The notes under the pieces: generated by a model
Seen by the model: the letters and a program-made list of their open reading frames with translations, nothing else
What the model was told of the DNA's origin: nothing
The model's database searches: none
Program-made: the position numbers and the translations under genes
Assembly (NCBI RefSeq): GCF_051622035.1
Contig: NC_135357.1
Coordinates: 20,202,256-20,266,255, forward strand
DNA: 64,000 nucleotides
Direction of reading: 5' to 3'
Source: Arctopsyche grandis
Lineage: Eukaryota; Arthropoda; Insecta; Trichoptera; Hydropsychidae
In this document: in pieces, positions 28,601-31,600 of the stretch
Position numbering within the stretch: position 1 is the stretch's first letter
Layout of the letters: each line of letters starts with the position of its first letter

Positions 28601-31600
28601 TGTTTACTATTAGAATGGCCATGTTTAAGCGGTTTATATTACAAATACCGAGCGAAGCCGGGTAAAAAACTAGTATATATTATACTACAAATTATTATGC
28701 AATTTTGAACATGATCCTTAAAGTTCCGAGAACATACGTATTTTAATTTTATTTTCCTCAATCTTATTAACGAATATAAAAAATATTTTCGATAATATTT
28801 ATTTTTCTGTAATTTATGCAAGTATTCCGGAATCGTGATCTTTTTTTTCATCGAGTGTGTAAAATCAATAAATAAAATAAATATTTTTATTTCAAAATAC
28901 TATTTTAAATAAATAATTACGTGTTACGCATATTGTTGTACACGTTTTGTTTTCGATATTTACATATACAAATATTTTTAATGCCTTCTGAGTATTTGAT
29001 GAAGTGACATTAAATAAGATCGGCAAGGGAATTATATTCAATTGAAACCATTTCATCATCTGCCACATCCTGTTCATTTTATTTACTTTGCAATTAAATA
29101 ATGATCACAACTAAGGCAAGCGACCTGGTTAAATTATTACAGCGTTAATTCCATTAATGGTCATGTAGGCGATGGGGCTAGCGTTTGTAATGTATCACAA
29201 TCATAAGTACAATCTAAGATGTACATATATTTTTGTAAATATTCGGTATGAAAATCTGGAAAATGATACAATTCGCAAGTCAGATGTTTTTTATTTGATT
29301 TCAAATGTGTGCAGTTTGGAGTAATATCCCGATGCTTTAGACGGTTTGTCCAATGTGAAGATTGATAGCATTGATGTGTGTAAGTGGTGAAGTGTCTCGT
29401 TTAGCGGCGAGTGATGATGTCCACGGAACGCAGGTGGGGGTGCTGGTCCACCACCGGCTTCCGGCTCGTCGGCCTGCAGTCAGTTGGCCGTTGAGCTTGT
29501 ATCATGACGCCGCGTTGACTATCTCCGTGTCACCATGGTTTCTGAGAGTGGCCCGTTGCCTGTGGTGTGGTGTTTGCGCGATAACCAGCTGGTACCTCAT
29601 CAGGTGTCAGCGGTGAGGCTACATGGCGCCGTCACAGGAGCTCATCTCGCAGCAGTTACAGACTTCCTCAGACTGGTCGCCACCAGGCGGCTGGTTCTAC
29701 CTGACCCACCACCGACCTCAGCACAACCCCATGACACGACCTCCGATGACGTCGAATCAGTAGATCCAGACACCAACACATCCACCCGCAAGCTCTCGCA
29801 GCAGCTCGAAGTGCCGTGTGTGTTTCTCAACGAGAACCTCAACAAAGACAAATTTCCCGAAACTGTTGAATCCCCCACAGAAACGGAACCCCAAACTAAA
29901 TGTGATATTAGAGTTAGGAAAATGAGCACGTTCGCTCTCTCGCCGCCTAGATTGAGTGTGGACTCCATGTGCTCCGATAGTACGTACGCAAACATAGAAC
30001 ATATCCAAAAGACCCTCGTGGAAGAAGGTGCCGAAAGCGTCCGGAGTGAGGACAACAGTTCGGTGGCTCAGTCGGATCTGGTGCGAAATTGCAGGAGGCC
30101 GTACATGCCGAGGAAGAAGCAATCCGTTTCCTCGATCGGCTCGTGCGACTTTGACGATCCAGAAAACGATGTGATATTCAAGTCAAAACCTAAATCTAGT
30201 CAGTGGGTCAGTTTAGATAGGATCGAGTACAATCCCAAATATGTGAACACGGATCGCGACAAGACTGACTTTGTCTCCAAGTGGATCACCGATCACCGAC
30301 ATCTGGAGGAGGACGCTTTGCCCGAGCTGAGGCGTAAAAGTTTACCGCTCAAGTCCAATGAGAAGATAATACAGACGGAGGTATCACGACGACACAGCGA
30401 CGGTCTTTCATGTTGCAAAGAAGATCCTGCCACCGATATACCTATCACATTCAGATCCAAGTGGCACGATATCGTCAAAAAGCATTTGCTCGCCCTGAAG
30501 TCGGCCGACAAGAGAATAAAGAAGCAGCGGAGGGTCTGGTCCAGAAGACTCTCTGGAACGTCCATCACATCGTTAGCGTCGTCGGAACCGTCCAACGGTA
30601 CTTCGTCGGATACTTATGTCAAGCTAACCACCCTACCGTAAGTTAACTGCACACAAATAAAATCAAATTCGTCAAAACTTTTCGGTTTTTTTTTTTATTA
30701 TATATACATATAAACCAAAATATAGCTTACTAGTGGTTTTACCCGGCTTCGTTCGGTATTTGTAATATAAACCGCTTAAACATGGCTAATCCAATTGTAA
30801 ATATTTGAATAGTTTTATTTTATTTAAATTTATTTGAATATTCTTTTTTTTTTTTATTAAATTGAAAGTCACGGATCCTACAAACCAAACAAACCATCAT
30901 ACATACATACAAAGTATCTTTCGAAATTATATATAAGAATAGTGTTTTTACACGGCTTCGCTCGGTATTTGTAATATAAACCGCTTAAACATGGCCAATC
31001 TAATAGTAAACATTTTATTAAATTTATTTGAATATTCATTTGTTTTTTTATTAAATTGAACGCCACAGATTTTACGACCCAAACAAACATACATACAAAG
31101 TCTCTTTCGAAATTATATATTAGATGAATAATGTATACTTATAATATTTCAATTGCAATATGTGCAAAAAAAAAACATGATTTGACTGGTCTGACAATTC
31201 GAAAAATTCGATTCGTTGTCGTGATTATGTTTTGAATGTTCTACGAAAATTCGCTTCGAAGAATTAATATCCTTTGTGTGTTGTGATCAAACGTGCGCTG
31301 AACATATAATTTACTTCTCATTGTAACTGACATAACTTATGTAATTGTCGCATTTTTGTGCGCGAATGCATTTGCAATATTTTTATTTCTCGGAAAACAT
31401 TTTTTTTCTTGTACAATATGTGTACTTTGCAATTTTAATTCAGTATATCATATACGCATATACAATATGTTTCAATAAAAAAGTTACATAATAAAATCAC
31501 TAATTAAAGTTTATATCATAAATTGCAATTAATGTTGCTCGTGCTAAGAGGAATTTATAAATATTTTTCACTTCCTCTATACTTTGTCATCATTGAATCG

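Follow-up and report, generated by a model that had tools for sequence, protein, structure and literature searches.

Src-family kinases are usually described as membrane-anchored enzymes that are kept inactive jointly by their SH3 and SH2 domains. A different design has been described for the vertebrate kinase form FerT, which arises from a promoter in intron 10 and carries a tail of 44 residues (PMC10049441); the reference list of that article also names a paper that calls ferT a meiosis-specific nuclear kinase. For Src42A itself, the gene is listed among those alternatively spliced in eMIC-minus Drosophila brains (PMC8797185), and that listing leaves the exon unspecified and offers no tie to the exon considered here. 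No SH3-less form of Src42A was found among the titles and abstract openings of the open-access papers listed for Src42A, and automatic gene models could well contain the isoform that we predict.

We analysed a window of 64,000 nucleotides from the trichopteran Arctopsyche grandis, and found within intron 1 of Src42A an exon-sized open frame that we consider likely to be an alternative first coding exon of this gene, under its own intronic promoter. On our best reading, the predicted form would work like FerT, the closest system in design: in FerT, an intronic promoter exchanges the N-terminus of a non-receptor tyrosine kinase for a new tail and leaves its SH2 and kinase domains in place, and the same is predicted here. 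The two differ in kinase family, in the length of the tail (44 residues in FerT, 367 here), and in that FerT expression is described in PMC10049441, whereas the Src42A form is predicted from sequence alone. Compared with canonical Src42A, the predicted form would have the identical SH2 domain, kinase domain and C-terminal tail, and the same splice phase into SH2, but it would be without MGNC and SH3, and would instead have a long N-terminal tail with RRxS sites. What the sequence shows is an open, coding-like frame, its phase and its one match in the genome; the promoter, transcript and splice of the predicted isoform are inferred, as are its localisation and regulation.

Table 1. Features of the Src42A locus considered in this study, in positions of the window.
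Feature	Position	Strand	Evidence or score
Window	C3:20202256-20266255		genome 475.7 Mb, 189 contigs
Src42A first coding exon, MGNC and SH3	1221-1696	+	Pfam SH3_1 3.3e-19; splice, phase
GC-rich (61.5%) stretch, putative 5' UTR and promoter, Inr-like TCAGTT at 29480	29400-29534	+	composition, motifs
Candidate first coding exon of the alternative form, 367 codons and two bases	29535-30637	+	
Shorter exon of the possible cassette reading, with acceptor CTCTCTCGCCGCCTAG/A	29951-30637	+	score 2.3, codon position 2
Donor GTAAGT, holding the in-frame TAA at 30639-30641	30638-30643	+	
AATAAA followed by a T-rich stretch, possible poly(A) signal of a nested gene	30656-30661	+	
Src42A exon 2, start of SH2 (WYFRKIK)	36183-36304	+	Pfam SH2 1.8e-11; acceptor score 6.0
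Rest of SH2, kinase, C-terminal tail	36399-38251	+	Pfam PK_Tyr_Ser-Thr, SH2; spliced frame
Individual Src42A exons of this part	36399-36562, 37107-37434, 37546-37724, 37813-37969, 38043-38251	+	

The canonical gene provides the frame of reference. Its first coding exon opens at an ATG (1221) with MGNC, a myristoylation-type start, and ends GAGCC/GTGAGT at 1696 in phase 2. The SH2 domain, kinase and tail are then encoded by six exons running from 36183 to 38251, and the spliced product has 544 residues and a stop. The candidate exon lies on the same strand inside intron 1, which is 34.5 kb long.

As sequence, the exon is confirmed to be genuine, an open and coding-like frame beyond what chance would give. 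The preliminary description had reported a strong start context with an upstream in-frame stop and 1.1 kb of fully open frame, and both observations stand: the ATG at 29535 has the context GTCACCATGG, an in-frame TGA precedes it at 29505-29507, and 377 codons run uninterrupted on the + strand from 29508 to 30638. When the 1241 bases around the exon were simulated 300 times with an order-1 model, the longest frame reached 238 codons (mean 125), and 30 such runs on the complete intron gave at most 178 codons, compared with the 377 observed. A period-3 signal of 4.30 across the exon was equalled in none of 2000 simulations, nor in any of a further 1000 in which stops in frame were replaced; when the exon was divided into thirds, the signal was equalled in 2, 2 and 55 per 1000 simulations, the last third being the weaker one. 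The GC content is 51.5%, compared with 29.3% in the intron that follows, and the exon and the exon 1 region have the highest GC among the nine GC islands of the window. One test points the other way, the codon score of the frame being negative (-22.8). Its training sequence, mostly AT-rich, came from Src42A and the midasin region; of the four stretches outside Src42A, three contain midasin domains and one (55440-57227) is without a Pfam match. Because the exon has 51% GC and most of the training sequence 32-33%, this score counts against the frame without being decisive.

The connection to Src42A depends on the donor at the 3' end of the exon and on the acceptor that it would use. Following 30637, the donor ACC/GTAAGT lies in phase 2 and leaves CC, matching Src42A exon 1 in phase, as had been noted before, and also in the two final bases. 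Both donors score 6.1, on approximate weights that were not trained on A. grandis. By itself this score is unremarkable: the candidate donor, which has a C at -1, takes the 15th place in the list of GT sites between 28.0 and 36.4 kb, the + strand of the intron has 66 sites with a score of at least 6.1, roughly one in every 521 bases, and three donor-like sites within the frame (29564, 29612 and 30080) score higher, all of them in phase 0. The acceptor at 36183 is the top scorer among the six Src42A acceptors. When the predicted join of 30637 to 36183 was recomputed, the earlier claim of an in-frame product of 753 residues and a stop was reproduced, in which the exon reads on in frame into the Pfam domains SH2 and PK_Tyr_Ser-Thr, and the junction would read TTLP-WYFRK, versus EAEP-WYFRK in the canonical form. 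The earlier interpretation is partly supported: a first exon of Src42A is favoured over the tested alternatives by the phase, the shared CC, the donor score, the rarity of stops within GTAAGT and the lack of a competing partner, the last two of which are taken up with the alternatives below.

The alternative that survives best, although we judge it unlikely, is a nested gene on the same strand, either single-exon or spliced in its 5' part, whose 368 codons would end TLP-TAA and whose transcript would be polyadenylated after the AATAAA at 30656. An in-frame TAA does occur at 30639-30641, within the donor. The same TAA arises from any phase-2 GTAAGT donor after a G-less CC, and since it is encountered by every exon that runs into GTAAGT in phase 2, a donor and a stop codon read alike at this point. 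However, stop triplets fall inside GTAAGT in just 8 of 1967 cases on the + strand of the intron, the candidate's own TAA included, so that in a nested gene this position would be a coincidence, and the Src42A phase and the CC would be further ones. The AATAAA follows 14 bases past the TAA with a T-rich stretch behind it, giving both a stop and a poly(A) signal after the frame, but such a motif is common in the intron (75 copies, about one per 460 bases), and the 3' UTR would presumably measure merely some tens of bases. A nested gene would also suit the location of the frame in a separate GC island with a possible promoter, and the link of the exon to Src42A is itself a prediction made from the DNA. 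The standing of these two readings, likely for a Src42A first exon and unlikely for a nested gene, reflects judged weights, not a computed ratio.

A very improbable alternative is that positions 29951-30637 form a cassette exon of 229 codons, which would be inserted between SH3 and SH2 to give a longer, still myristoylated Src42A. The acceptor CTCTCTCGCCGCCTAG/A at 29951 is the top acceptor-like AG in 29290-30600, and a splice to it from exon 1 would keep the frame, just as one from 30637 to SH2 would. Its score of 2.3 lies midway in the set of six Src42A acceptors, above 1.8, 1.1 and 0.5 but below 6.0, 5.0 and 3.9. Arguing against the cassette, the frame before 29951 is also coding-like, as seen in the first third of the exon (2 per 1000 simulations), and it has a good ATG.

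We also searched for other exons to which the candidate donor might be joined. Pfam searches at E 0.1 of all three + frames of 1701-29401 and 30642-36182 found no domain, and on the - strand, where 27000-36182 was covered, they returned nothing; 29402-30641 was scanned in the exon's own frame, with nothing above cut-off. The identical procedure applied to 36183-38260 recovers SH2 and kinase. Because an acceptor threshold of 4 would miss four of the six Src42A acceptors, the acceptor scan was repeated at 0.5 and 0.4, cut-offs that retain five and all six of them, respectively. Of the 179 AGs in 30701-36182, 27 score at least 0.5, and seven of these lead to in-frame pieces, 3-15 codons long, before a donor; the best coding score among such pieces is 1.8, versus 6.5 (best point) and 5.5 (whole) for the SH2 exon. 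Lowering the cut-off to 0.4 admits 30 AGs, not one of which opens a 30-codon frame. The AG at 35382 slightly outscores the SH2 acceptor, and its frame stops immediately. The earlier statement that no other + strand acceptor exon precedes 36183 therefore holds within the Pfam and acceptor scans done. Least probable of all is a first exon of a different multi-exon gene with unrecognised exons downstream, since, although short or domain-free exons escape Pfam and the acceptor weights are approximate, scans of 30701-36182 found neither a Pfam domain nor an acceptor-led in-phase frame of at least 30 codons, and the next recognised genes are one with weak DUF4487 matches on the - strand at about 42.3-43.2 kb and midasin on the + strand from about 48.8 kb.

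The 5' boundary of the exon is uncertain. Two Inr-like matches occur in 28901-29535, at 29074 and 29480, a motif match alone being no proof of a start, and TATA[AT]A is absent from the same interval. Seven ATGs lie in 29300-29534, and from the one at 29374 a frame of 80 codons extends across the beginning of the exon. Elsewhere in intron 1 there are mild GC islands (45-47%) at 7001-7510, 12441-13020, 14201-14820, 16381-16680 and 24531-25030, whose + frames are without Pfam domains; these may be regulatory DNA or additional first exons that are non-coding.

If the exon is used as a first exon of Src42A, transcription would start near 29400-29500 from the intron 1 promoter, 29535-30637 would be read, and CC/GTAAGT would then be spliced to 36183, where SH2 begins. 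The resulting protein would keep SH2, kinase and C-terminal tail, and would have the 367-residue tail in place of MGNC and SH3. This tail begins MVSES, with no Met-Gly start, and is therefore without the Gly2 required for myristoylation. A kinase lacking the myristoyl anchor would be soluble, except if its basic stretch attached to membrane or to import factors. Pfam found no SH3 in the exon product, and the SH3 of exon 1 would be bypassed by the predicted form, so that, going by established Src biology, the clamp of SH3 on the SH2-kinase linker would be lost; the clamp between SH2 and the C-terminal tail could remain. Control might instead be exerted through the new tail, by means of the basic cluster KRIKKQRR next to RRLS and of two further RRxS sites.

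The preliminary description had the tail as a basic region with several RRxS sites, and this holds in part. Three such sites (RRKS, RRHS and RRLS) are present, as many as were found in 29 of 20,000 residue shuffles. Over its full length the tail has a net charge of +1 and so cannot be called basic; the basic character is confined to its second half (+9 in residues 191-368, compared with -8 in residues 1-190). We take the RRxS sites to be of the PKA type and KRIKKQRR, adjoining RRLS, to be a nuclear-import-like basic cluster; their proximity suggests that localisation may be controlled by phosphorylation. Modelled with AlphaFold2 from its single sequence, the exon product gives a mean pLDDT of 43.5 and a pTM of 0.21, with pLDDT below 50 in 281 of 367 residues and between 70 and 90 in 31. 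Averaged over blocks of ten residues, pLDDT exceeds 70 only within residues 311-340 (76, 84 and 75), the next best block being 11-20 (69). According to this model the tail is probably mostly disordered, with a basic helical stretch at about 304-340 before SH2.

Relatives of the exon product were sought in several collections. In the 475.7 Mb genome of the species itself, one match was found at E 0.001 or better (five candidates scored). Pfam gave nothing above cut-off, the lone weak match being ScpA_C at a sub-cut-off E of 0.025, and PDB yielded no relative up to E 10. Phage records held no relative, and 36 pattern matches in prokaryote genome contigs gave no confirmed one. In viral contigs, two of four pattern matches were confirmed, over residues 248-273 at 50% identity and E 5e-4, a value counted against the candidate stretches only, and we take them as chance. 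Since these collections comprise phages, viral contigs and prokaryote genomes, absence of relatives there says little. An origin from a transposon or repeat was rejected, given the single match in the species' own genome and no Pfam family above cut-off. A possible similarity between a handful of residues in the tail and the N-termini of PDE5 and PDE11 was also dropped, no PDE or GAF domain being present in the scanned + frames.

Repeats are present on both sides of the exon. Copies in opposite orientation flank it at 28459-28668 and 30737-31120, the best pair (28556-28668 and 30945-31057) extending over 113 nt with 89% complementarity. Inverted repeats that flank an exon can favour circular RNA or pre-mRNA hairpins. 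Close to both exon ends there is also a 24-nt inverted match of 88%, between 29293-29316 and 30645-30668, which overlaps an acceptor-like TGTGCAG and the bases just past the donor. This pair resembles terminal repeats, but we treat it as chance or incidental, because the frame was found once and without a mobile-element domain.

Beyond Src42A, the - strand at 42310-43184 has weak matches to DUF4487 (E 0.0012 and 0.0038, both under the Pfam cut-off), which we take to be a domain of FIRRM/C1orf112; they come from two of the four - strand frames tested in 41315-45090, the other two being without a match. Three large + frames at 48766-54171 carry AAA and midasin-lid domains and represent the midasin gene (MDN1). 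They are followed at 55440-57227 (+) by an open frame of 595 codons with no Pfam match at E 1, which by its position is perhaps a further part of the midasin gene.

At its fullest, a Src42A first exon of this kind would make a tissue-restricted or developmentally restricted, soluble and possibly nuclear SH2-kinase, without the SH3 clamp and gated through PKA-type phosphorylation on its tail, conserved within an insect lineage and undescribed in the well-studied flies; we consider this extended picture improbable. An anchor-less and SH3-less form made by the same gene would offer a natural way to test the contributions of SH3 and myristoylation, and such an isoform could confound loss-of-function work aimed at the exons that the two forms share.
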